Assembly: GCA_030141605.1 (NCBI GenBank)
Contig: JAQGDQ010000269.1
Coordinates: 62,001 to 126,000 of the forward strand
Origin: Tubiluchus corallicola
Lineage: Eukaryota > Priapulida > Priapulimorpha > Priapulimorphida > Tubiluchidae
DNA length: 64,000 nt
Direction of reading: 5' to 3'
The translations under genes were made by a program, and so were the position numbers. Positions 30,022 through 64,000 of the stretch are shown here, one piece after another. Positions within the stretch are counted from its first letter, which is position 1, and every line of letters starts with the position of its first letter. The notes beneath the pieces are model-generated. The model searched no databases and was not told the origin of the DNA. It saw only the letters and a list, made by a program, of their open reading frames with translations.

Positions 30022-33000
30022 CTAGATGTCATCGGGCAGGTACGCAAACTGATCAGTATCTTCACTGCAACGAAAAAACATTAACTGAAATAAAATTCAC
30101 TGTTGATGTTGTTAACTATGTGAGATGAACCAACAGGTCCCTTTGGAATGCTACTTGCATAGGGAATTATCTTAATAAATCAGACAGAGGCACCCCCATC
30201 CAGTTACTCATCAAATACAATATTGCCTTACTTTGGGAACTCATCACAAACATTAGCAAGTCCGATTGTTGTCAGCATTTTACTTAGATGTTGATTATGT
30301 TAGTACTTAATTCTTGAATATGCATTAACAGAGTTTAAACAATGTTATTAATTTTTTTACAAAATATTTGGATGTGAAACGAAAACAAAATAAAGCACTT
30401 TGAAAAATGCACGAAGGAACTAAAAAGTGCCAATTTTGAAAAATGCGCTTGGGGGAGCGGCTGCTCCCTGTGCACCCCAATTAGCTATGCCACTGTCTGT
30501 GCTTTGACAAGAGTACATACATGCAGAGAAGATGCAATTAACTACAGTGAGCTATAAAAAAAATTATTGCTTTGATTAAGAGCGAGTTTTACGGATTTTT
30601 AATCAGTCTTGTCAACATGGAATCGTAAAACTGTGTGAAAAAAGTAAAAACAGATCACAAAATATACTCACTCCATATTCCAGATATTTCGTCTGCGGTG
30701 CCTGTGAAACTTCCTGATAACCACAATAATTAGGACAGTTATGGTTATAAATGCTACCATACCACAAATAACACCTGCAATAATTACCACGAACTTATAT
30801 ATATACACACACACAACCTCAATTAACAGTAATGAGCATATTTAAAATAAACTACTTTAAAAATGCTAATTACAAATATCCTCCACGTATTAAATTTTTA
30901 ACTGCCATGGAAAAAATTAAACACAATCCAAGTTAAAATATGGGAGAGCTCTAATGAGACATGTCATCTTTAACATAAAAAACGTAATGGCCTTTATAAT
31001 CTCGATGGTTATATATTACATTATATGATTATTCGTTACACAACCACTTGCTCAGTGTTTATAAACTGCCAAATTTTGTAAACCTTACTCTAAGGTTAGC
31101 AGTATAGTCTATTCAGGTATGCTAATTTATTCTTTTTACTTTCTTAAATTAATTCACTTTATTCTGGCAACAGCAATTGCATAGTTTTGAGTTTTTTCGT
31201 ATGCAGTCATTTTTACTACTTCTCTAACTTATTATATTTCAAATCAATGATGTTTAGCTAGTATTTTTGCTTGTAATTTTCTTGTTTTACACTGGTACAT
31301 ACTGCTTTAACATTTTATCTACAATTTTCAGCTGATGATGCCAACTAGGGTGAAAGCTTCAGAAATAATATATAATTGTTAAGACTATAAATGGCATTAC
31401 ATTTTTTATGTTAATAATCCAGGTTCATTAGTTTTTAATATTTCTTGTACACTACTTAATATACAAATAAGCAACAAGACATGTTCCACAGCAGGAAGGG
31501 TTGCTACTTCAACATACGTGATAAATTTAGGTAGATGACGCTGAGCTAAACACGGGCCTCTGTAAAGTTTTTGCTCTCCATTCTCACAAACACTAGCATT
31601 TTCCTATCATTAAGTAGCTTTAGTATTACCTGCTACTTGTGCAAATAGGGCTAATGCAATTCACTTTCTGAAACAACTAGTGTCCTGTACAACCAGGTTT
31701 AGCAATCAACAGGAAAGAATTGTACTTCAAAGACAATTCACTGAAATGTGTCTGACCATAAAATTACCTAAAGCAACGTCTCCAGCGTGACCTCGCGATT
31801 CTGCTATCTTAATGTCCGACACGCTCTCACCATTAGCAGTAGAATTTAAGTGGCTGGAATAATCACGAACCTTATCTACAAACAATCACACTTGTGTTAG
31901 GGATAAATAATAAGAATTAACATCAGGAGTGAAATGGTTTTAAGAGTGGTATGCTGCAAAAATCATTACATTTTCATTACTTAAAACCTTGGTGGTTGTA
32001 ATCAGCATCTAAAATGTTGGTTATAGCTACAAATGGTAAGGGATTTTTTACAAATTATCAATCACAAATGCAGGTTGTATTTAAACAGCATTATATCCAG
32101 TGGCGGCTCATACCTAAATTTAACGGGGGTGCTGGTTCAGAAAATTTTTAGCCATTGTTTTTTTTGCTTACTAATAGCCTAAATTGTTGCAGTTCAAGCT
32201 TGCTCCATTAATGGTAAGCACGTGGCAAATGACAACAAACTGTGTGAGTGACAGTACTTTCTCTACCTGGGCTGAGACGTGCGCATGGCCGCATGCGCAC
32301 AACAGCCAAACACCGCACTGCTGGAGCGTACTGTGCTGGGCTGTGAAGCAAACAGTACTACGATCACGTACCATGGTTCCGTACAAGTATAAAGAACTAA
32401 AAAAAGACTTATTATTTTGAATATTATTGATAATATCGAGTGAAAATTGGGGGTGCTGCAGTTCTACAGTACCTATACACGAGCCGCCACTGATTATATC
32501 ATTATAATTACATGTTGAATTACAGTCACATTTCAATAGCTGTGCTTGCATATTGTATATGATTTTCACCTTTCAAGAGATAGAAATAATGTAGCACATT
32601 CTTTAAATAGAAATTTCTCTTAAATAGAAATCGGTCCTGTAATTGCCGTTTCTTGGAAGCTGACAATCATATACATGTACAAATAAAGCACATCTCAAAT
32701 AATTTCATGTCAGAAAAAAGTGTGTATCATTACATTAAAATCATGGCATTTCATTGTTGCATTTTATTTCATTGCATTAAGATAAAGTTTGTTTTGAATG
32801 TCATTATTTTTAAAATTTAAATAAAATATCAACTCACGAAACTAAGTTTGACGCCACCAATAAGTAAGTAAATTTGTACACTTGGGAATCAGATTGCCAT
32901 GTGGTTCAAGTCACAAAACAAACCACATGGCAATTTCGTTGCTTAGTGCATAATTAATGCAAATTTTGGTGCCATCAAACTCGTTTCATAAGTCTACTGG

Positions 33001-36000
33001 AACATCACTAGTACATTTGAAAGTGAGCATCACATTTTGTTAACAAAATCAAGTTACTTTATTACTTTTTTACACATTCTTTTAAACACACTGACATGGA
33101 CAAGGTTTTTGGAGTAATAAAAGCACATGCATTTCTCATCTGTTCATCTAGCAAAGGGAAGTCTTGCAATGTGGCAGCATATACTTTGCGCTTAATTTAA
33201 ACCCACAAAAAGATGTTACATGTTGTACGATCCGGCGATCGAGCAAAACAAGTGATGTTACAGCTCTGCTCTAGATTAGCATGACAGCAGCAGAAAATAT
33301 TGCAAAACTTCAAATGTAAACTAAAAAATTCTCAACTACTGAGAGTTTACAGCAAGACGAATATCGTAAGTCGATTCGCAGCAAAAAAATTGAAAATCAA
33401 ATGAGCAAGTGATTTATGAAACACCCTGTACATACTATCTATTTCGGAAAGCTGTAGCATGCTGCCATCACACTGAGCATTGCACGGTTTTACCATAATT
33501 ACACCATTTTTTTGCAAGCTTCAAGACCGTACAAAAAACAGTTTACCTGTCGTAAAGGTGATAATGTTGGACCTGTGCTGTGCGTCTGTGACGTCATCGC
33601 ATACGATGTAGAAATTGTAGGTATGATTGACAAGCAGACCTGCAACAATACACAAGGTGCATTATTGTACCATGCATAGCCGAACCCACGTTTTGTAATA
33701 GTCAAACCCTGTTATAACAGCCCCCCCTTTATAATGGCAACCTCGCCTAATGCTCAAATTTTTAACAAGACAAGGCGGTATAAAGAGGCTTGAGTGTACA
33801 TCTTATACAACGTCTTCTATTATTTCAAATTTTGTGGTATGCACTACTTGCTGGATAAACTGGATATAAGATTTCCACTGCTGTCGGAGCTCCACAGGCC
33901 CACAAGAAACTTCGTGAGGACCACAGCTTTCCAGTTAGCGCATGCCTGCTTTTCTTAAAAATTTTCCTAAACACCACTAACTGTTAGTGAACTCATTAAA
34001 TGAGCTCTTTGGAAGGCAGATGATACAAACTACAATGAACCGCAGACTGACAAATGGGCAATCTATAACTAGGCACATTACAACACTTCCGCCAGGCTGA
34101 ATGTTAACAGCGTAGTTCCAGATTCTAATTCGGCAATTTCTTGCTAAGACAGCTATAGAACATAGACCCATTGTTACTATGTCATCTTTGCATCACCAAT
34201 CACCATATTAAGTGACCAATCTTTAAATGGGTAAAGAGCTATAGTTAATACTATATAGAATGTTTGCCCACTATTTTAAAAATGTGTATTTCAAAATGTT
34301 GATTATGGTTATTAAGCAAAATATTTTTCAAGCCTTTTGCCAATTAAACTTATACATGTAAAAGGTATAATGTAAATACAGATGGCAAGCAGAATCGAGG
34401 CTTTTACGGTCTTCTACAAACCAAGTACACTCTCAAAATATAGGCTCCCATCTGACGGATTACATGGGCGCATGAATAGCAGAAAAAAGTACTGGCGATG
34501 GCAACCTAAATAAAAACTACATACCGGGTATATTCACAATGCTATCCTGAGGAGAAAGACTTATTATTGATTTTTTGTCATTGTTGTTTAGACCATACAC
34601 AGCCTCACAAGAAACTAACGACAGATCCGTCAACTGTGTCCATCGGACATCGGCGAAATTCTTTCCTGATTTGACCAAGCTCACTTGCAGGTCTGAATGC
34701 TCAGAGACCATTTCTGGATAAAAGGAAATAGAACAGTGTAACAAGACAATAAAATTTTTGGTTAGTTTGAGAACAATTTTAGTAATTAATTATGCAGTAC
34801 AATTCGATCAAAATAAATCATGGTACTAATTGTAGCATTAAACCCTGGATTTCAAATGTTCAGAATTTGAATATAAATTTATAAAAAATATGTCATTGCA
34901 TAAGCCAAATATGGACTGATTACTCGTACTTTTGCACAATAGTTTATGTTAAACAGTTGCATACATACATACATGCAAACGTACCATGTAAGAGCGTGTG
35001 TGAACACTATCAGACTTGATTGGCTGGCTTTTCTGATTTTGACCACAGAAGTGAGCAAATTGAAGAAAACTGTGTCTTCTGTGCGAAGTTTCACTCCACT
35101 GAAAGTCACTGACCAGTTGCAAGCTACCGCAACCACTGGCAAAGTCGGGAAAACGAAAAACTCATTCGTCGAAAGCAGAATACTATGTGGTTATTGCAGC
35201 ATTCTGGGATAGTTATGGGAGTATTCCACTGCATTGTTCCACAGCGTTTCTTATTGTACCATTAAGTAGTACAGGCTCTTTGAATGATGCACATTTTTAC
35301 AGTAAAAAACACATATAAAGGGACAAAATTTAAAACCTGACTTGTGGCAGATGACAGACCAGTGAATGAGGCACTAGCAGCCAGCAACATTATAATTTTC
35401 TAAAAGTAAGCATTTTAAAAATTATCCAGTGATTGTTAAGCATATTACACTATAAAAATAAAAAGACGCTTTTATACTTTTGAACGATTAAAGCAGAAAT
35501 TTAACATAAGAGATAAGTAGCAGTGAAGCAGATACTTTCAATATTATGTATATAAATATGAACAAAACAATGCCCTGTTCACACATCAGTCACAATAATA
35601 GTAGCAATAAATACAGTAAACATTGTGTTCACACGCAATGATAAATTACACTGATAATAACTTACTGATGAGTACTGCAAAACACATTTTACAAGTAAGT
35701 ACTATTTGATAATTTCTACAGAATACATCTTATAATTTTATGGGACAATAAATTTAAACACAGATTTTTGTAATATAGTTATTTAGACAAATAAGAAAAG
35801 AACAGGTTACCTTGGTTGCCTAATAGACCCACAAAGAAAAACGAGTGTATTTCTACTTTTTCTAGCAAAAAAAGAGACGTTAACAATCAAGGTAATCTAA
35901 AGAATGATACCAGATGAAAATAAAATGTCTAATGCAGAGAGATAAGTCTAGTAAACCAGGAAGATTACTAGCAGTTCATTAAACAAAACAGCAAGTCTAT

Positions 36001-39000
36001 AGCACCCAGCTGAATACAAATCATAATTTTTAATTTAGTCTAGGCAACAAATCATTCAAATCAATGCTAATATATCACATTGACAAAAAAACAGATTGTA
36101 TCTCCATATCATAAATAACAACAGTTATGAATGCCATAATGATTAAGAATAGAAACAGAAATGTAATATAAGAACTACTGGTAAGTTGCATGTATGTATG
36201 TTGAACAGCATCCCAGTGTATCAAGGTTGCAAATTTGAGGGCATCAGATTTTTACATAAAGACAACAATTAAGTACAAGTAATAGGAAAGCTACGGAAAT
36301 TCACACACGGAAAATGGGACCCCAGTATTTACAAGAAATGGTTTTCACACTAATACATATCACTGAAAAGAGTTAGTGGGCCACATACGAATAAACTGAG
36401 TAATAACTGAAGAAGTTAAATGCAGCAAGTTTCTACTAAAGTTTTATTTTGATAGCAGAGTAAAAAATTAACAACATAAAATGGAGTTTCTTTATATACT
36501 GGAATAAATGCAAATTTAGTATGAAATCCAGAAACTTAAAACATGTATAAATATACTAGAAATCAAATCTCGTTTATCCACAACATGAAAATCGTTAATC
36601 TCAAAGTTTCACAAAGTTACCTTTTTACAATCTCTGAACAACTAGTTACTAAAAGTCCTGTAAATATCTTAAAGCTTCTCTAATGCAGATTTGGGTTACC
36701 TATTATCATAATAAATGATTATAAGCTATCGAAACAAAGTTATCAGGTGTTCTAACCACGCTAAAATACTGCACGTAAGATTCATTAAAATGCTAATGTG
36801 TACATACAAAATACTCGAATTGGAAGTATTGAGTTCACACTTACGGGTAGTCAACACAACTAAAATGATAATATCTTTGACAATTTACTAATAAATAATT
36901 AGTGTTTATAAAATTTAATAAAAATATAAATAACCTTCAAGTTTATAAAGATCGCTTGGGCACGTATTTTGTACAAAAGAATACAGTTCATGATTATTGA
37001 CAAGAATTCAATGAGATAGATCACTAGATCATTAAACGTAAATCAATATTAAATCTGACAACTATTGCTGTACCCCACAGTTTTTTATGGAGATGAATGC
37101 GATTAAAGTGCAATACTGTCACACAATTGTGTCATACAATGGTGATGAATTCACAGTTATAGTCATCGTGTTAACGGGATGATACGTTTTGTGATGTCCG
37201 TTAGCTATCACATGACTGGAACGCGTACAAACGCTTTCTATGGCTTTGTATAAATACATATAACTTGACTTCTCCTTCCAGATACCAGGCCTGCGTAAGT
37301 GATAAAGTTTTGCCGTTTGGTACACGTCCACACAATCGTCGTGTTCTAGCGCTCTGCACAAAGTGCACAATGCACACAGTGTGGCTGCTTCTTGACCGCC
37401 ATACTTGTCAATGACTGTAACAGGGCCAGCCTGAAAGTTCTTTTGTCTGCCTTGCACAAAATTCAAAAATTCAAACATCTGCGTAAAGCCAGCACACACA
37501 TCCGGCCACCCAGGATAATAGACCAACTTAGTCATTAGTTCATAGTCATCTTGCGTAGATTGCAACAAAAAGTCAATTTCTACATAACTGGCCTGCACTT
37601 TCTCCTCGACAACAGCCAATGTGAAAGTTCCATAATTTATCACAACATTCTTTTCTGGCCAAAATTTATCATACCTGCCTGTAGGATCTTCCTTTTCGAT
37701 TTCTTCCTCAGTTTTGCCTTCTTCCAAAGGTGTTAAAGTGCTGATGAGTATCAGCGTTTGGGAATTGTGATCCCAGATCATTTGCCAGAAATCCATGACT
37801 GTGTTAGGAAGGGGATGCTGAGTTATTATGTAATCTTGTAACCTGGTGAACCCTTGGAAGAATGAGGCATTAATGTAATCTGATCCATCTTCACCGGGTT
37901 TGGCTAATATTGCGACACGACGTGAGTCAACAGGTAGCCGAGTTTGACTCCTATTTTTTGAGCGATTGCACTCTCTTGTAGCATGATGCATGTGAAATTC
38001 CTTTGGCTTAAAAGAAACGACCAGTTCATACTGGGCATCAAAGTCGGATTGCCCCGTCTTTGGATCTGTCTGCTGTAAATTTTCTAAGTAGCCAGATAAA
38101 TTGGCACTGCGAACTTCAGTTTCACCACTTTGTATGTATTCTAACAAGGCATCATGAAGAAAGATATACTGTTCCTCAGTTTGCACCAAGTAGTTTCTCT
38201 GCTGCCGGATATGCTTTAAATAAGCGTAGACATTGACTGTCTGCTTCTGTTTTATCTGGCGCATCATGCTATCCAGAACACAATATGTTCCGGTTCTGCC
38301 CACTCCCGCACTACAGTGAATTATTATAGGTCCTGCGGAATCCGGGTTGATAATGGCTGACTTGCGCACGAAAGTCAAAGATGACAAAGTGAAATCCGGA
38401 ACACCGTGGTCTGGCCAATCAGTAAAATGATACTGATAGATAACTCTCTCTGATGAATGCTTCTTTTTGACTTTCAAATTTTTTATGGTGAACATTCTTA
38501 TAGTATAACTAGCCATGACAGTTTCACTCAGAAATTTCACTTGCAAATGTCCATATACTTCAGATCCTTCTTTTGGCCAGTACATGTCGCACTTACGACG
38601 TCCACGTTCGAGCAAATTTGTGATCATAACCAGTACAAAAGTGTTCTGCTCCCAAATCATCTGCCAAAAATCGATAAATGTAGTTACCAGAGGGCCCTGA
38701 GCAGCAATGTAGGCTTTTGGTTTGTGAAAGCCGTCAACATAGTTGGCATTGATGTAGTCGGAATGGCATTTTTCTTTTCCTGGGATTGGCTGCAACTTAA
38801 CACGGCTGTGATCGTAAGCAACAATGTTAACATATCTGTTCTTGTCTTTGTTTTCAAATTCAAGAGATGCATCGAAAGTTGCACCTGGAGGAGAATACCG
38901 TTGAATGGACTCATACTCTTGTGAAAAACCATCATCGCCATCAGCATGTAGCTGAGCTACATGTTTTGCCCAATCGCAGGTGCTTATTGGCATATATTCG

Positions 39001-41238
39001 GGGTCATCATACGTATCAGACAGCAGCGATGTCTGCTGCAAAACTCTGTGAGACTTGTGATCGTCCAGGTAGTAATATGCAGCTTGATAGCATTTGCTCC
39101 ACAGAGTGTATACAATGATGACAATGAGAAGCACAATAATAGCACATACTATTCCGGCTATCACGCCTTTGCTCATCACATTGTCATCAACCGTTGACGC
39201 CGATGTAACGAACTGTACTCCTTCCGAATACCCGCCTTTGAATAATCGCTTTGAATGGTACACACTCTCCACAGCTCCGACGACTTTAACTTCGTATATA
39301 GTTTTCGGTTTAAGGTGATTTACTATTGTGTATAAAACATGCGGTTTATCATCATATTCATCAGGTGGCTTTACTTGAATACTTCTTTGTAACTTTACGT
39401 GTGACCGCTTGGCTCTGCCATGATGTCTAAGTACTGTGTTATCGCTATCGTTGGACACTTTCCACAGTTCAACCCAGTAGAGGTCGACTTTACCATAAAT
39501 CATCTTAGGAGAGTCCCAAGATACATTTGCTGTTCGTGCGGATAAAGTTGTGACATTTACGTTAAGTGGAGGGCTTGGAGCTTTTACATCTGTGACAGTT
39601 TTAAGCTGTTCACTCTTTACACCACAACCTTTGCTCGTACATGCCACGACGAAGACAGCATACAACTTGTACGGCTCCAGATTTGGAATCACGCAGGTAT
39701 ACTGGTTTCCAGGAACAGTGATCGATCTCGTAATTTGAACATCTCCTCCAAAAAACGCGTGGTACATGACCTTATAAAGTTGAATTATTCCGGTACTTAC
39801 AAGAGGCGGCCTCCAAGACAGATGAAAAGAGCTATCTGTATGTTGAGATGCAGTCAAATTCACTGGCTTCTCTGGCACCCCTTCTTCTGTGTGTATGATA
39901 ATCTGCAAAGGTGGCCCATAATTTTTCCCATTATCAACTTGAATGTTAATAACATATTCCGTAAAATTACCATGTAAATTTGAAAGTTTCACGGACGTTT
40001 GCGGGTGTTTGATGTAAGTTTGTATATTTCGTTGGCTGCGGCCAATAGCTTGATAGACCAGTCTGTAACCAGCTAGTTTTCCATATAACTCATCTAATCG
40101 TGGCGGGGACCACGAAATGTTAACAGAATTGCTGCTTACATTGAAATAGGACACGTCTCTCACAACGCCTCTTGGAGTTTCCTGCAAGGTTTTCACATCT
40201 GAAGATTCATCGCTTGGGGCACTTCTACCAACGTTGTTGACTGCAAATATGCGAAAGCGGTAAACACTATTTGGTTGTAGCCGACCAATTTGACAGGAGT
40301 TTTCCTGGTGAGAAACGTGCAGCTCTCTGTAATCACTCCAGTCCTCATCTTTCAACCTCCATTGCACGATGTACTTAGTAATTTCACTGTTTTGGGATTT
40401 TAAACTATGTCGCCACGTGATGCTTACGGATCGTGACGTGATTGCATAGTGATCGGGTTTTCCTGGAGCTGAGGGTACATCCTGTACCACAATCTCTTTT
40501 ATGGCACTAGAAAATATGGAATCAACCGTGCAGTGGTAGCTTCCAGAATCTTCAGGCCGAACAGCAAGAATGTGTAGACTGTGTGCTCTGTCGATACTCA
40601 CTCGCGGATCTGCTATTATCTGCTTCCCGCTCTTGAAATCTCGGCGCGCTATTGTTGAAGAATTTCGATGCCATGCCACTTGGATAGCGTCATTAAAATC
40701 GTCACTTTCGGATTGACAAGGTATCACGGCTTCCGATCCAGCACGTTGAATTAAACCATTTGCAAACTCCAATAAACAAATAGATATCAAGTATGTGAAA
40801 AGACATACTTGCATCCCCATTAGGCTTCTTTTTCAGCAAATGATCTGACATAATACAGCTAAATTAGTTATGCCTAGTGGCAGTGGGGATCATATTCATA
40901 TGGCACGCAATGAATTATGAAGCACTTTAACTCAGATATGCAGATCTACAAAACCGACATAACTGTAAACTTCCTGTTGTTTTTAAACGGTTTTACCAAA
41001 ATACCTTCAACAAAATTCCTGAAAAAGACAAAATAATTGTAGAGTGAGCAATGTAGTGTTAGTCTTAATAAGTCTAACAAGCGCAATTGTCATTACCCGC
41101 TAAAACTGATGTAACACTATTTAGAAAACATAAAACTGGTAAAAACCATAGAACAATAAATTTCACTTTACGCTGAACTTGAGGTAAAAGTAACGCACAG
41201 TTCATACTCCAATTTATGCCATAAATTAAAACTGACAT
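30022..41238 (-). CDS. Small type I membrane protein with one FN3-like domain, 6 exons
   Basis: Exons in transcript order: 41097-41238, 34525-34713, 33547-33639, 31768-31875, 30672-30774, 30022-30064, with phases matching at every join. The sum is 225 codons plus TAG from the Met at 41238; an inner Met at 41205 and an outer one at 41340 are alternatives. Exon 1 ends in a good signal peptide (basic KVK, hydrophobic FIVLWFLPVLCFL, then SVTSVLA). Exons 2-3 form one fibronectin-III-like domain (DVRWTQL ... NHTYNFYIV ... NIITFTT). Exon 4 is a Ser/Asn-rich stalk. Exon 5 has one membrane segment (GVICGMVAFITITVLIIVVI) and a basic stop-transfer RKFHRHRRR. Exon 6 adds an acidic tail ending AYLPDDI. 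I do not recognise the family. Intron 1 encloses the phosphatase gene on the same strand. Exon 1 is the least certain part. Confidence 0.68.
32098..32492. mobile_element. hAT-type miniature element with perfect target duplication
   Basis: The ends CAGTGGCGGCTC and GAGCCGCCACTG are exact inverted repeats of 12 bases. They are flanked on both sides by ATTATATC (32090-32097 and 32493-32500), a perfect 8-bp duplication diagnostic of hAT insertion. The 395-base interior has no transposase; the short open frames in it are not gene-like. It lies in intron 3 of the FN3 membrane-protein gene. Confidence 0.9.
35200..37118. other. AT-rich stretch, probable 3' UTR of the phosphatase gene
   Basis: No exon could be supported. 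This lies downstream of the phosphatase stop codon and inside intron 1 of the FN3 membrane-protein gene, so it probably contains the phosphatase 3' UTR. No long repeat was noticed. Confidence 0.5.
37119..40820 (-). CDS. Receptor-type protein tyrosine phosphatase, Ptp99A-like, single exon
   Basis: A single 1233-codon frame encodes a whole receptor: signal peptide (residues 1-22), one Ig-like domain (Cys35 to the Cys of DSGSYHCTV near 97), four FN3 domains (about 116-545), one membrane helix (GVIAGIVCAIIVLLIVIIVY, about 555-577) and two cytoplasmic PTP domains. D1 is intact: WPD loop with Asp804 and the signature HCSAGVGRTG with catalytic Cys836. D2 keeps its fold but the signature reads IDKYGGQEAA, with Asp1138 in place of the cysteine. 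This is the inactive-D2 type of PTPRG/PTPRZ and insect Ptp99A, which also has Ig/FN3 ectodomains. It would dephosphorylate phosphotyrosine at the plasma membrane; Ptp99A works in axon guidance. The absence of introns is unlike its neighbours and suggests retroposition or wholesale intron loss. It is nested in another gene. Confidence 0.94.
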   Translation of the reverse strand: MGMQVCLFTYLISICLLEFANGLIQRAGSEAVIPCQSESDDFNDAIQVAWHRNSSTIARRDFKSGKQIIADPRVSIDRAHSLHILAVRPEDSGSYHCTVDSIFSSAIKEIVVQDVPSAPGKPDHYAITSRSVSITWRHSLKSQNSEITKYIVQWRLKDEDWSDYRELHVSHQENSCQIGRLQPNSVYRFRIFAVNNVGRSAPSDESSDVKTLQETPRGVVRDVSYFNVSSNSVNISWSPPRLDELYGKLAGYRLVYQAIGRSQRNIQTYIKHPQTSVKLSNLHGNFTEYVINIQVDNGKNYGPPLQIIIHTEEGVPEKPVNLTASQHTDSSFHLSWRPPLVSTGIIQLYKVMYHAFFGGDVQITRSITVPGNQYTCVIPNLEPYKLYAVFVVACTSKGCGVKSEQLKTVTDVKAPSPPLNVNVTTLSARTANVSWDSPKMIYGKVDLYWVELWKVSNDSDNTVLRHHGRAKRSHVKLQRSIQVKPPDEYDDKPHVLYTIVNHLKPKTIYEVKVVGAVESVYHSKRLFKGGYSEGVQFVTSASTVDDNVMSKGVIAGIVCAIIVLLIVIIVYTLWSKCYQAAYYYLDDHKSHRVLQQTSLLSDTYDDPEYMPISTCDWAKHVAQLHADGDDGFSQEYESIQRYSPPGATFDASLEFENKDKNRYVNIVAYDHSRVKLQPIPGKEKCHSDYINANYVDGFHKPKAYIAAQGPLVTTFIDFWQMIWEQNTFVLVMITNLLERGRRKCDMYWPKEGSEVYGHLQVKFLSETVMASYTIRMFTIKNLKVKKKHSSERVIYQYHFTDWPDHGVPDFTLSSLTFVRKSAIINPDSAGPIIIHCSAGVGRTGTYCVLDSMMRQIKQKQTVNVYAYLKHIRQQRNYLVQTEEQYIFLHDALLEYIQSGETEVRSANLSGYLENLQQTDPKTGQSDFDAQYELVVSFKPKEFHMHHATRECNRSKNRSQTRLPVDSRRVAILAKPGEDGSDYINASFFQGFTRLQDYIITQHPLPNTVMDFWQMIWDHNSQTLILISTLTPLEEGKTEEEIEKEDPTGRYDKFWPEKNVVINYGTFTLAVVEEKVQASYVEIDFLLQSTQDDYELMTKLVYYPGWPDVCAGFTQMFEFLNFVQGRQKNFQAGPVTVIDKYGGQEAATLCALCTLCRALEHDDCVDVYQTAKLYHLRRPGIWKEKSSYMYLYKAIESVCTRSSHVIANGHHKTYHPVNTMTITVNSSPLYDTIV

Positions 41239-41326
41239 GGCTGCTGCTGCAAAATCGGACGCAGATGCGGAGACAGGAAGGGAAGTGGAAATTATCGTGA
41301 AGTCGGTCGGAGGATGAAAAAAATCA

Positions 41327-41342
41327 CCACAAGGTGGCACTA
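41327..41342 (+). promoter_or_regulatory. CTCF-like motif
   Basis: CCACAAGGTGGCACTA closely fits the bilaterian CTCF core (CCASNAGRKGGCRS). It sits just upstream of the first exon of the minus-strand FN3 membrane-protein gene, within a divergent promoter region. The match is by eye only. Confidence 0.4.
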
Positions 41343-42114
41343 AAATTGATCAAAACAATCATGGCGCGGACATAAAAAGTTGTTTGTACATGTATGTACT
41401 GTTACAGACTTACAGTGATAGTTTGGAAGCGCAAAGATTTTAGTTTCCGACGTAACTTTCATTGTGATTAAGCACAGGAAAGTTGAGGTTTGCATAATCT
41501 ATTTTAAATTAGTTAGCTATTAAATTTACAACATTTGTTTTATCCTGTATCAGGCTTATTTTACTGTACTAGCTACAACTGAAATTAGGTCTTTAAAATA
41601 AAAACTCTGTATTTTGTGATTGCAATTACTACCATCAATCATTAACAGGCCAGAAAAAAGATAGACACACTTACAGATAAATAACAAATAGTCTTGCAAA
41701 ATGTTATTTGAAATACCAAGAAGACGAGAATCGTTGTGTTGCAGAATCGAAGTATAAATTGAAATCAAGTTATAAAAAGTTTTGATCAACAAAAATAAAG
41801 ATTTCATCTGCTCATAGTAGTTATCGTAAGGCAGCAATAGCAATACATGAATAAAACATTAAAAATTTAAGATTGAGTTGTGTGTCAGTTGCAACATTGG
41901 GTGATTTGCCAAATAGTCTTGAACTTGCTAAAATCAATATCATGACTGTACCAATGGGGAGAAATTGAACCGTGTGATAATGCAGTCTGTAGTGATTCTG
42001 TTTTACACTTAAATAATACTGGCTGCCAGGTTGCAGGTTGCTTCAGGATTGTTTTGATAGCTTGGAGATTTTGTGTAAAAACAGACAGTTTTATTTTTCA
42101 GAGAAAGTTTAAAA
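41341..42114. promoter_or_regulatory. Divergent promoter region of the FN3 membrane-protein gene and PLGRKT
   Basis: The minus-strand gene starts at or before 41238-41340 and PLGRKT starts at 42115 on the plus strand, leaving about 800 bases for both 5' regions. No coding exon was seen inside it. Confidence 0.5.
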
Positions 42115-44414
42115 ATGGGGTCTATTATTGCCAAAGGAATGGACGAAAATATGAAGAAGCAGCAGGAGTTCATGCTAGCTAATGGTCGTTTACAGGTAAA
42201 TAAATGAGTCTGCATTGATTTTTATACTTTTTATTTATACCATATAGTGATGACAGGTAAGTACAGGTCATCCCGAAACGCTTTCCCATAAACGAGTCGT
42301 TATTCGTCATCCTGATAGAGGTGTTTATAAAACAGACCTCCATCATCATTTAGCCCAGCTTCTCCTCTTTCAAAAGAGCTATAAATTTCCTTCCAAGACT
42401 GCCAACAAGAGCCAAGAGTATGTTTTTTCTACACGGTGTTCCTGCATGGAGCAAAAAGTGGTAATTTTTGGATGTTTTTCACATGTCCTTCCTAGGGGAA
42501 CACTATGTACAAAAAATGTCCTTGCAGTGCTCCTGTTTTCAAAAAATCTAGCAAGACCATGTTTGGGGGGGGGGGGGAAATTGAATTATTGGTATAAGGG
42601 CACTCTTGGTACCATGCATCTTTACACCACACAATTAACCGGGGGCTAACAACCTAGTTAGTCCGTTTTTGATTTTTTGCCGTAGTCAAACTTGTAGTCT
42701 CCAGGACCATTCATTTAAGCCAAATGAGTCAGTCACCTGCCACATTGCAGTTGTGCAGTCATGAGCCACTATACAGGTGGACAGGTAGGTAGACTGTTCA
42801 ACCCTTTAGCGCATCGGAGTAACGTGATCTATAAGTTGTTTGCATTACTCCTCACCTGACTGCACATGGAACCCCAATGAGTCCCACTCTTTGAAAAGAA
42901 ACATCATACACAGAATGTGCATTTTCAGTTACACTTCAGTGCAACCAGGTAAATTCAATGATTTAAAAAATACTAAGTGTTTATTTCTTACTTTTGCAAA
43001 ATGAAGGTATTCCATTCAACCATTGCTTCTTGGCAAGTGAAAACGTTCAGTTTTTGTTGTTCTTCTCAAAACTGCCACAAGTGCATTTGCAAGGCATTTT
43101 CAGAAAATGAGAGAGAGCGCTTGGTGGGATCTTGGAGGAAAACTTATAGCTCTTTGGGATGAGTAGAAACCGGATTATACCGTGATGTGGGTTTCTTTTA
43201 CAAACGTCTCTTCCAAGATGAAGAGTTGTGAGTTAATTTGGGGACATTTTTTCTGGATGACCCTGTATATGTTATACTTTGTTGTATTATATTTATGACA
43301 GGTGAGCGTGTTGTGGTTTTTACAGGCATTGTTTCTGCTTATAGCACCAGCAGTCAGAGTTACCATCTGTGTTTGCTCTTGGAACAGCACCTCCTTGTTT
43401 AATTACTATTAAAAGTATTAATAAAAAAAATTTCACAGTGCAAAATGAGGCTGCGAGATTAATAGGCGATCGCTAGTATCTAATTTTGGCACTACTGATG
43501 TGCAAACTGATCAGTGATCAATGCTCAGAGATTGTATAAATTATCGAGTTTGTTGCAGATGGAGCGCCAGATCCAGATGCAGCGATTGATGCAGCAGAGG
43601 ATGATGGCTACCAAAATTTCACAGTCCAGGGAATTATTTTGGTGGTGGCTTGCGTTCTACGGCACTGCTGCAGTTGGCATGTTTGTTGGGTAGGCAGTTA
43701 CTGTGTTCTAGTCAACTATGTCATCTTGATTAGACAGAATTAATTAAAGGAAAGGCCAAGCCTTCTGGGAAGTTGAGCTTATTTCACTGTTTGATAAAAA
43801 TGTGAGAAGGATTTAGCTTTGATAAGCGTCTCATGCAAATAGTAAAATCTGTTTTTTTAAACAGTATTTTACAATTTGATTTTGTAGCGCAAAGAAGAGA
43901 AAAAATAACGGCATGCTTGCACCACTGGTGCCTTTATCATTCATCGTAGGATATTTGGGCGACTTGGCGTATGGAACAAAGATCGAACGGATACGAAGTA
44001 AGTTACCTTGCCATTTTCATTTTAGGTTACTAATCATTTTAATTCACGAATGTAAAACAAATAGTATAGAGAACTAAAATATTTTTTACTGAAATGTACC
44101 AATTTGCTACCAATAAATGATGCTGAAATTTTTGTTACTAAAATGTGCCAAATTTTATGAAATTTACTTCATATATGGCACTGACTTATTTTTTTACTGA
44201 AATATACCAAATTCGCTACATAGATGGCTATGACATATTTTTTATTGAAATGTGCCAAATTTATCTCATAGATGGTGCTGAGGTGATCATGCTGGAGCAA
44301 GATGATTTGTTAGCAATGCCTTGTGGACCGCCAACGTTTGCAACAATAGAAAACGAAAGATTAAAACAACGAGATAAGGACACATTTGAACATAAACATG
44401 ACCTGTTCCTCTGA
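42115..44414 (+). CDS. PLGRKT: Plasminogen receptor (KT) homologue, 4 exons
   Basis: Exons 42115-42195, 43559-43689, 43888-43997 and 44272-44414 join in phase to 154 codons plus TGA; human PLGRKT is about 147. The N-terminal half is Gln/Met-rich and helical (MKKQQEFMLANGRLQ, then MERQIQMQRLMQQRMM). It is followed by two hydrophobic segments (LFWWWLAFYGTAAVGMFVG and LAPLVPLSFIVGYLGDLAYG) separated by a basic AKKRKNNG turn, the two-pass topology of the family. Human PLGRKT ends in a lysine that binds plasminogen at the cell surface. Here the C-terminus is HKHDLFL, with no terminal lysine, so plasminogen binding is not predicted. The ancestral role of the family is unclear. Intron 1 contains a mariner-like element. 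Confidence 0.92.
42264..43265. mobile_element. Degenerate mariner/Tc1-like element
   Basis: The left end CAGGTCATCCCGAAA and the right end TTTCTGGATGACCCTG are imperfect inverted repeats, each flanked by TA, the target of Tc1/mariner elements. The 1002-base interior has no intact transposase frame. It fills most of PLGRKT intron 1. Confidence 0.6.
44083..44285 (+). repeat. Tandem repeat spanning the PLGRKT exon 4 acceptor
   Basis: Three or four units of roughly 55-60 bases share ACTGAAATGTGCCAAATT followed by a CATAGATGGTGCTGA-like end. The last unit contains the real acceptor and first bases of exon 4; upstream units carry decayed versions of it (CTACATAGATGGCTATGA, CTTCATATATGGCACTGA). Confidence 0.75.
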
Positions 44415-47400
44415 GCTTCAATAGTCTTAAGAAAAAATCATTGTTTATTTCCTTTATTACAACAAATTTCTATTTATCTGGTGTGCAGGTTCTACATAGA
44501 GTTATAAACGTTTGTACCAATTTCATGGTTCTTATGTAACTGCAATCACAGAAATGATTACTTATGTAAATGTGGTAGAGCAGGACCTGAGACTGAACTG
44601 CTTGTTTTGCATAAATTTAGCTTTACATTTACCGAGACCCACCGTTCCTACCTATTGTACTGTAGACACTCTTAATAGACAGGTAACAGGCACTTAGGCA
44701 GGAAAAGACAGATTTTTATAAGTAATGACCATTAGTAAATAAGATAGCTGATCAGCATAGCTGACCTATTAGAGTGCCTTGGCATTTTTTGTTTTTTGTG
44801 TAAACGAAGCATCACAATGTTTGTAGTACTTACTTTCGCTACAGATATTTGTAAATAATGAAAGATTTTCGATTGCAAACTACCCACTTGACTTTCTTTG
44901 AGGGACATCTTTGAGTAATATGGTAAGGGTCTTTTATAACTGGTGTGCGTGGGCAGCAGGCGTGTATATGTATATGTACATCATTACTTGAAGAGTTTAT
45001 TCTTCGGGGTAAAAAAATCAGTGGAATACCTTTGTACAGGGGCATGATTGGTGAACGGGGGGTGGGAGGAGTAGAACTTTTACGCCACAGGATTTCAACG
45101 GCAGAAAAAAATAGAATAGTTTTTGCTGCCATAATGGGATTTGATGACCATTTGCCAGTGTAGGTCAACTATGACCATCCAGACAAAAAACCCTGTCTGG
45201 AAGTAATGAACTTAAGCTACAACTCCATGTGCGAGTGATGCATATTCAGACAATAACCATTACATTTGAGTGAATATGTATCACGGATTGCGCATTCCGT
45301 ACACATGGAAACAGTTCCACGTGTTTAAATATAAACTGTAAGGGCAGTAAGGATCACGCATTACGCGCACATGGAGTCGTACCTTTATGCAGAATACAAC
45401 TTCTCCTTAACAACCATCGAAGAGATTAGAACAGAATCATAACTGCGGCTAACTGTTTTCATGCTGTCTTTCCATTTAAATGGGATTTTGCTGTAATAAT
45501 ATGAGTCCAGGGTCACTACTATTCAATAGGTATATTTGCTTAGGTAATGATAATTTTCGAAATTATTCGTGAACTCAATTTGTTGCAATGATCAGCCGAA
45601 TTATTACATATTGATTAATTATGTGTTTTAAATTGTATACAGATTGAATGCAATAGTTAGTTGCCTTCTGATATCATGACAGGTGTGCAAGTGCCAGTCA
45701 TCATCATCATCATCATCATCATATGCCCGCTAAGTCTATTGTTGACATTGGGCAGGCAGACTTCTAAAATAAAAAAAAACTGCCTTCAAGACCAATCCTT
45801 AGCAATAGGCAGGGCCGGATTATCCTATAGGCTGCAGTATAGCCTGCAGTATAGATATTTCTTAAATGATATTTTTATTGACAAACAAGTCAAGTCTATT
45901 CTAGTTTGTTTTAAAAAATTGAAATAAGTTTACTTCAAGCTATGTAAATGTCGCTAAAATATATCACTAGTAAAAACATTCAAGACTGGTGCAAGTGAGT
46001 TAAGTGTGGCTCCATCTGAGGGGGGGGGCATAATTTCATTAGGCTAGGGATCCCAATTAGTCATAATCTGGCCCTGGCAATAGGCAAAAAGCGACAGTTA
46101 CTTCCAAACAGTACAGTATGCTTTGCAGAGCGTGACTGGCATCACACTAGCATTCTGTAAAACAAATAAATTTCACTTTAGCTCAAATTAGTGATTAATT
46201 TTATTGTAGCATAAAAGTTTATTTTTTGAGGGAATAGTTTTATGTGTTCATGTTAGCGTACATTTTTTTTGTGTGAATATTAGTAAATTAGCCACAAGAT
46301 AATAATTAATTTTATTATGAAAATAAAGCATAGGTATAGTTGTGAAATTACATTAATCATATCTTAAATTAATGCAGTTTGTGCAATTAAAATAATGTAA
46401 TTAGAATGAGCTTTCTGGGAGTGTAAAAGAAAAGATAATGTTCTTGGCAAAATTATCACTATGTCTAGAACATATAAATGTTGTTATTAAAACAATTATT
46501 ATTATTAATATTAATAAATACAAGCTCTTTCAACTGTTTAGCCAATTCTGTTCATTGTTTTTATTAAAGATTAATTTAATGACTCGAACACACAAATAAT
46601 GCCTTACATTAAATATATCAGGAAAGAACTTTGTGGTTCACATAAAATAGTCAGATGTGTTAAAATGGAATGAGATCTTCTGAATTTTGACACATATTTG
46701 GGCATGCAATAGGTAAGACAAATAACGATATATAATTGTTTCAATTATGATAAGCTTTTGAAAACAATTGCTGTGCTCTCGTAGTTGGACCTTAAACCTG
46801 TTGTCGTATATATATTATTAATGTTAGTGTATGTAGATTAATTGTTATTCTTATGCTGACACTGATATACGACATACAATCACACACACACACGTGTGGT
46901 CTCTGCCCTTGCACAATTTATAATTTATGTAAGAATAGTGTGAATAGTTGACATTTAATTTGTGAGTGAAATAGTTAGAATTAATATTCTGATACATGAA
47001 ACACGCTACTTACCATCACAGTTATATGTATTCGCATGTTAAGTGATTAATTAAGATCAGTTTGCAGAAGTTAAGCATAGTTGGTTGCGCTTAGCATTTG
47101 AGTAGGTGTTTTGGAATTTGGTAAAATTGAGCACTGGCCAAACCTTTGTTTTTAAATCCAAATAAGAACTGCATTCAGGAACAGTTCAACTGTCCTTGCA
47201 TTTAAGTAAGTAGGCCTAAATTTTAGAGATATTCGACTTTGTATCGTAGGAAAATTAGGAACTAGTTTCTTCCAGTGGAACAAAAGTATCGCTGTCTTCT
47301 AATGCCACACGTCTTTAATGGAACGAATTATAGTAAAAATGAATTTATGAAAAAGCTTAAATTCAAGTGTTGTCAGTTTATCATTTCCGTTTCTTGTAGA

Positions 47401-47888
47401 CTTCTTGAAAATTTATTTAGCAAGTAAGAAGCAAAAACAGTTTTCTATTAATTAAAGAATTCCTCAATTAAGAAGCCAGGGGAAAAAACTATATTGTAAG
47501 CAGCTGCTCTAGAAAAAACTCACAATTAAAAAATGAAAAGAAAACACAATGTTTCAAGCTACCGCTGTAGTTTATCTTCAGGCGAAAGAATAAGAAAGAA
47601 AAAAGAAAATTACTAATAATAATTTTTAGAACGTTCTATACTTGTCAATAAGAATTAAATTTGCAGCCTAGTCTAGAACAGCTTTCTCGTATTCGTCGTG
47701 CTAGTAATGAAAGCTAACACGTGGGTGAGGGTCTCAGACTGACATTTCTGTGCATAGTACAGTGCACCTTCTAGACAGCTGGGTTACTACTAGACATCTG
47801 GGCTATCATATCCTACGAAGCTGCTCCCTCGACCGTTGCATGTGTTCCACGATCATAGTGAAAAAAATCACCTTTATACCTTCAGCCA
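44415..47888. other. Intergenic region between PLGRKT and ACE
   Basis: It holds the PLGRKT 3' UTR, a short (CAT)n run near 45700-45722, the hAT MITE at 45810-46076, AT-rich unique sequence, a hammerhead-like motif at 47541-47586 and, at its right end, the ACE promoter region. No gene or exon was seen. Confidence 0.6.
45810..46076. mobile_element. hAT miniature element (MITE) with perfect 8-bp target duplication
   Basis: The 267-base element begins CAGGGCCGGATTAT and ends ATAATCTGGCCCTG, an inverted pair with one mismatch. GCAATAGG flanks it on both sides (45802-45809 and 46077-46084). There is no transposase. Relatives lie near 6200-6415, 21711-21985 and 59175-59370, so it typifies the commonest identifiable mobile family in the window. 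Confidence 0.93.
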
Positions 47889-62973
<15,085 letters not shown>

Positions 62974-63835: not shown

Positions 63836-64000
63836 GTCAGAATACCTCTGTGGTCTAACAATTAGCACATCTGTCTGAAAAGCAGAAGGCCCTTGGTTCA
63901 AGTCTCAGTGGAGGTGCAAAAACTTTCAGACTTCAATTTAATATTGTTTTCTTATATTTATTTGATTGCATGCAGCCAAGTTGAATAGCTGAATGTTCAC
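63836..64000 (+). mobile_element. tRNA(Phe)-like SINE, runs to the window edge
   Basis: Bases 63844-63915 fold as a degenerate tRNA. The acceptor arms ACCTCTG/TGGAGGT pair over seven positions with wobbles. The anticodon arm TCTGT-CTGAAAA-GCAGA has the anticodon GAA (Phe), and the B box is GGTTCAAGTCT. The T stem has mismatches and the tRNA-like part is followed by an AT-rich body shared with the copy at 63668, so it is a SINE and not a functional tRNA gene. Confidence 0.6.

Follow-up and report, generated by a model that had tools for sequence, protein, structure and literature searches.

The window analysed here, a stretch of 64,000 nucleotides from Tubiluchus corallicola, contains a single open reading frame of 1233 codons on its minus strand (40820..37119). 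The frame runs from ATG to TGA with no interruption and an in-frame stop lies 15 nt 5' of the ATG. The ORF is no chance frame: Pfam identified an Ig domain, four fn3 stretches and two Y_phosphatase stretches in it (E 1.3e-129). The 1233-residue product has the layout of a receptor protein tyrosine phosphatase: signal peptide, Ig domain, four FN3 domains, transmembrane (TM) segment and two phosphatase domains, PTP D1 and PTP D2. The signal peptide and TM segment were read by eye. The ORF and Pfam results agree with a preliminary description of this DNA, which had placed a complete Ig/FN3/TM/two-PTP receptor in a 1233-codon open frame. Contamination as the source of the receptor is unlikely; the same 311-kb contig carries multi-exon genes. 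Among the papers listed by a literature search there was no report of an intronless receptor PTP, which is no proof of absence in print.

Among 177,635 distinct PDB sequences, the best match to the receptor was PTPRG (2nlk, E 4.1e-182), followed by PTPRZ (6j6u, E 3e-169) and PTPRS (E 2e-158). The D1 domain contains the WPD motif and an intact active site (HCSAGVGRTG). The D2 domain is degenerate, with the P-loop Cys replaced (VIDKYGGQEA in the receptor, aligned with VHDEYGAVSA in PTPRG D2), and the catalytic Cys is missing from D2 of both proteins. Because of the PTPRG and PTPRZ matches and the Cys-less D2, the predicted protein is assigned to the R5 class of receptor PTPs (PTPRG/PTPRZ type), with an Ig/FN3 ectodomain. 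It shares the tandem PTP domains with PTPRG and PTPRZ. It differs from these vertebrate proteins in its Ig domain and four FN3 domains, in its coding region of one exon and in the ectodomain match that is missing: a carbonic-anhydrase-like domain was absent from the 12 Pfam families matched in the receptor. Drosophila Ptp99A is an R5-type receptor PTP that also has an Ig and FN3 ectodomain. The protein would be expected to have ordinary receptor PTP function, with recognition by the ectodomain, an active D1 and D2 as a non-catalytic partner.

Six minus-strand exons on the two sides of the receptor give one frame of 225 amino acids, with AG/GT at all internal borders and intron phases of 1, 1, 1, 1 and 2. 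Exon 1 (41097..41238) contains the ATG, a signal peptide and a phase-1 donor (GGTAATG), and the receptor transcript could also have it as a 5' exon. Exons 2 to 6 each join in frame. Exon 2 (34525..34713) has an acceptor in the top 0.1% of AGs in the window (0.097%), exon 3 (33547..33639) has one in the top 1%, and the acceptor of exon 4 (31768..31875) is weak, with 24% of window AGs as good; these three acceptors (34713, 33639 and 31875) were the host acceptors scored. Exon 5 (30672..30774) encodes a hydrophobic TM-like segment and exon 6 (30022..30064) carries the TAG stop. The predicted host protein thus starts with a signal-peptide-like sequence and ends in a short tail, with a single hydrophobic, TM-like segment. 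Pfam gave a TMEM154 match (E 0.015) that is under the Pfam cut-off and no fn3 match in the host ectodomain, though the latter looks FN3-like by eye. Shared ancestry of the host and the receptor was weighed and rejected, as the alignment of the host with the FN3-TM region of the receptor was weak and not significant (22.7%, E 0.18 without composition correction).

Host intron 1 (41097 to 34713) would be 6.4 kb in length and would contain the receptor together with its candidate AATAAA poly(A) signal (36443..36448, minus strand). Further candidate poly(A) signals (ATTAAA) are found at 36919 and 36034 on the same strand. A scan for first exons covered 34714-37118 and 40821-47800, and exon 1 was the most hydrophobic of the 13 candidates, two of which were exon 1 itself. 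An alternative host start at 35390-35342 has a weaker signal-peptide-like sequence and a phase-1 donor. Same-strand nesting of the receptor in host intron 1 is the simplest gene model and a plausible one, and we infer the splice from 41097 to 34713 from the borders, phases and signal peptide. The preliminary description had stated that the flanking exons join in phase and that the receptor lies inside the first host intron. The single 225-residue frame and its AG/GT borders bear out the first statement, with the reservation that the exon-4 acceptor is weak and the long splice is deduced; the second fits the same borders, phases and signal peptide, with the reservation that exon 1 might just as well belong to the receptor.

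To the right of the host, an ACE-like gene on the plus strand is represented by at least 10 exon matches. Its intron borders were set at the local sites with the highest scores, and of the nine introns modelled this way, eight are 331-1101 nt and the ninth, at 5186 nt, probably hides missed exons. Two stretches of this gene (57530-57574 and 58886-59005, plus strand) seem to be two versions of one exon start, and this seems to be a duplicated or mutually exclusive exon. Elsewhere in the window, a long array of repeated 12-residue units in several frames, with skewed composition, was noted at about 49843-52008 on the minus strand; it looks like a tandem repeat and not a gene. A match to the Rfam tRNA model at 63844-63916 on the plus strand (37.1 bits, with no ARAGORN call) is perhaps a tRNA-derived SINE.

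The acceptor TTTTGTCTTTTTCAG, followed by GAATTT with 41018 as the first base after it (minus strand), is a candidate 3' border of an intron in the receptor 5' UTR. It is located 198 nt 5' of the receptor ATG and 79 nt 3' of the exon-1 donor. When scored with a generic weight matrix, it ranked in the top 0.125% of the 7216 AGs in the window, which is like the host exon-2 acceptor, and it outscored all nine modelled ACE acceptors. Its score was matched in 2.1% of 848 control windows of 300 nt, which overlap and all come from the one 64-kb window, and regions 5' of genes may be T-rich. The acceptor suggests a 5' leader intron in the receptor gene. It is as strong as the host exon-2 acceptor and could take a splice straight from exon 1, which may thus belong to the host transcript, the receptor transcript or both. 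The earlier gene model had omitted this acceptor and with it the direct joining of exon 1 to the receptor. Such a join would create a 55-codon uORF whose end is 172 nt 5' of the receptor ATG, would leave four additional upstream ATGs, and would remove an intron of 79 nt, compared with at least 331 nt for the modelled ACE introns. The CpG profile at the receptor was uninformative on a promoter.

The assembly searched for further copies of the receptor comprises 343.5 Mb in 2344 contigs and may be incomplete. Among the best 38 of 150 candidates that were scored, the receptor matched itself at 100%. Next came a pair of LAR-type genes (43% and 41%), and below these a PTPN4-like gene, matches to fn3 domains and short hits to PTP exons. 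A COX1 search of the assembly gave no match. No second R5 gene, intron-bearing or otherwise, was found in the 343.5 Mb among these best 38 of 150. In addition, eight stretches of intron-bearing PTP sequence were fetched and compared by tblastn. The receptor matched them at 27-58% over short pieces, and in 16 of the 24 places (hand count) its score was equalled or bettered by a LAR or PTPN4-like query. The receptor thus appears to be the only R5-class gene found, with no spare copy.

All four intron-bearing PTP loci inspected have an intron at the catalytic HC-S codon, in the same place and phase; the split codon is AG^T in three loci and TG^T in one. This intron is absent from the receptor and from both LAR genes. 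In the PTP profile search, 22 of 74 rows start or end at profile positions 176-178, which is the HC-S site (hand count). Some fragment rows cross this position uninterrupted (e.g., C1030, C821, C637 and C2279), and the intron is therefore not universal among the PTP genes. Since the receptor lacks the intron of the four intron-bearing loci, its sequence supports the view that its coding introns were lost and are not primitively absent. The coding region of the receptor is intronless, as the earlier description had it, although relatives have introns.

The receptor is no outlier, as many other coding regions in this genome are also uninterrupted. In four PTP genes a single ORF encodes whole domains: the receptor, the two LARs and the PTPN4-like gene, which is uninterrupted for 897 codons. 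The LARs (G000:C1923, L009, and C1543, L010) have 1904 and 1916 codons in one ORF each and are 55% identical. A Sidekick gene is a single ORF of 2123 codons with six I-set and 13 fn3 domains, a receptor with Ig, FN3 and DB modules (the DB module hints at a protostome) is a single ORF of 1142 codons, and an ORF named by eye as polycystin-like has 2715 codons and no stop (G000:C1923:548857-557004). A distance of about 5.6 kb separates the polycystin-like ORF from that of the LAR gene on the same contig. Tyrosine-kinase-like domains served as a control family, some members of which could be mobile or foreign. Among 152 matches, at least about 42 rows (41 ORFs, by eye) covered 200 or more of 258 positions with no stop. 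Ten single-ORF kinases were fetched: for four the fetched stretch contains the whole frame, and for the other six it stops short of the 3' end of the frame, with over half of the frame lying beyond it in two cases. L049, L050 and L051 (on G000:C1849, C1602 and C1328) are three paralogous single-ORF proteins with a C-terminal tyrosine-kinase domain and, at the N terminus, a four-TM domain like that of CD20 (PF04103; E 4.4e-7 for L049, the one member scored). This is an unusual receptor-kinase architecture, and the three were fetched minus their last few residues. The preliminary description had given all neighbouring genes 4-15 exons as a contrast to the receptor. This agrees with the six exons of the host and the ten or more exon matches of the ACE-like gene, the two neighbours checked, and fails genome-wide.

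A rare upstream acceptor was defined as one within 300 nt of the ATG whose score was reached by less than 5% of the 848 control windows. Such acceptors were found for five of the seven single-ORF genes first studied and two of the ten sampled kinases, or seven of 17. In the LAR genes L009 and L010 the acceptor lies 266 or 82 nt before the ATG. No comparable acceptor was found upstream of the ATG of the PTPN4-like and polycystin-like genes, and none so strong upstream of the host start codon or the roughly placed ACE start codon. The seven of 17 are moderate evidence for leader introns. A different arrangement is seen in L047, a kinase with SH2-ANK-SH2-kinase architecture, in which a giant exon seems to begin in the middle of the first SH2 domain, just after TTTTTTAG, and the following 652 fetched codons are open; the upstream exon was not located. 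The first SH2 domain of L047 thus seems to be still split by an intron, which is the 5' retention expected of in-place recombination with cDNA. It was the only one of the 17 single-ORF genes with a sign of a retained 5' coding intron.

We consider it likely that the receptor, as the only R5 gene found, had its coding introns erased by way of reverse-transcribed mRNA, and that it has a 5' leader intron and is nested on the same strand in its host. All coding introns would have been removed at once through a reverse-transcribed spliced mRNA, and the leader intron that ends at 41018 would have been kept or newly gained. The receptor transcript would then use the acceptor at 41018 and a poly(A) site near 36.4 kb, and the host transcript would splice exon 1 to 34713 across the entire receptor unit. 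The route by which the cDNA acted is less certain. Recombination of the cDNA with the receptor gene in place is a serious possibility that falls somewhat short of an even chance. A 5' coding intron retained beside an uninterrupted remainder, as seems to be the case in L047, speaks for this route. The other route is a processed R5 mRNA that inserted in host intron 1, recruited the first exon or the promoter of the host, took over the function of the parent and outlived it, and to this we assign a tentative place, as a possible but rather doubtful history. The nested position on the same strand as the host fits a relocated copy better than loss in place. A parent-replacing retrocopy suits the nesting and the complete lack of coding introns about as well, and the failure to find a second R5 gene among the best 38 of 150 candidates and the precedent of amphioxus SYCP1, with its newly acquired 5' UTR, are also in its favor. 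Runs of A or T between 41300 and 34714 are all shorter than 8 nt, and the two receptor flanks share no exact direct repeat longer than 10 nt. A poly(A) remnant and a target-site duplication decay with age, so an old retroposition is expected to have lost both. However, many unrelated genes would each need such a replacement. That the receptor is a retroposed duplicate beside a surviving intron-containing parent, as the preliminary description proposed, is very improbable. The proposal fits an intronless receptor between two examined neighbours with introns, but the whole-receptor search gave no intron-bearing R5 exons among the best 38 of 150 candidates, and the intron-bearing PTP stretches matched the LAR or PTPN4-like query as well or better at most of the places compared (16/24).

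The gene models at the locus also have alternatives. It is unlikely, though worth weighing, that there is no nesting, with 41238-41097 a 5' exon of the receptor only and the downstream exons a gene with another start. The strong acceptor just 79 nt past the exon-1 donor and the weaker signal-peptide-like start with its phase-1 donor at 35390-35342 would suit this arrangement, but exon 1 is the most hydrophobic candidate and joins exon 2 in frame, and the receptor has its own signal peptide, to which exon 1 would add only a uORF. A further reading, also improbable, is that coding introns were erased gene by gene across the genome and that the receptor is now an alternative terminal exon of the host gene. 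The erasure would have occurred all at once in each case, by reverse-transcribed mRNAs, in many genes of signalling and neural adhesion, namely RPTP, LAR, Sidekick and kinase genes (one kinase is JAK-like by eye), and neighbouring genes would retain their long introns; the shared exon 1 would have two alternative splice targets, the receptor 79 nt away and exon 2 at 6.4 kb. Trans-splicing, by which a spliced leader would be joined at 41018 and the receptor cut from the host pre-mRNA with no promoter of its own, is highly unlikely. The acceptor has no cis partner at the intron lengths of the ACE gene and similar acceptors precede several other ATGs; however, the host and roughly placed ACE start codons and ten of the 17 single-ORF genes lack such an acceptor, and an Rfam scan of the 64-kb window found no spliced-leader RNA.

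Receptor PTPs and receptors of the LAR and Sidekick type are expected to be rich in introns and to have splice variants. The genome-wide pattern of uninterrupted signalling genes is more interesting than the receptor locus itself, and it is less ordinary that the neural-type receptors LAR, Sidekick and R5 are all affected while local neighbours keep long introns. A one-exon R5, two LARs and a Sidekick beside intron-bearing genes would be a good test system for cDNA recombination against retrocopy replacement, and for the question of how these receptors do without alternatively spliced coding exons. The receptor locus would be a test of how expression of a same-strand nested gene avoids blocking its host.

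Two published systems can be compared with the receptor. Amphioxus SYCP1 is described as a retrogene replacement with one coding exon of about 3.2 kb and a newly built 5' UTR (PMC5803294). As far as that description goes, SYCP1 and the receptor are alike in their single coding exon and in that no multi-exon parent is left. SYCP1 has 5' UTR exons upstream (PMC5803294), whereas the counterpart in the receptor is a candidate leader only, and the SYCP1 copy lies beside another gene, whereas the receptor lies within a presumed host intron. The replacement of SYCP1 was shown with transcripts; the receptor is known here from genome sequence alone, and the loss of its parent, unlike that of SYCP1, is an absence from one assembly. 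The second system is the russet mite Aculops lycopersici, reported to have undergone massive intron loss in a 32.5-Mb genome, with more than 80% intronless genes and a measured retention of 5' introns (PMC7738191). Its authors give recombination with cDNA (reverse-transcriptase-mediated), deletion and retrocopies as open alternatives (PMC7738191), and the reverse-transcriptase model of intron loss and its predictions have been set out elsewhere (PMC3652778). The two genomes are alike in the loss of multiple conserved introns from single genes, judging from the published account of the mite. Unlike that of Aculops, the genome studied here is 343.5 Mb, has neighbouring genes with long introns and only suggests 5' retention. 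The intron loss of the receptor would be a further case of known kinds, namely retrogene replacement and massive intron loss.
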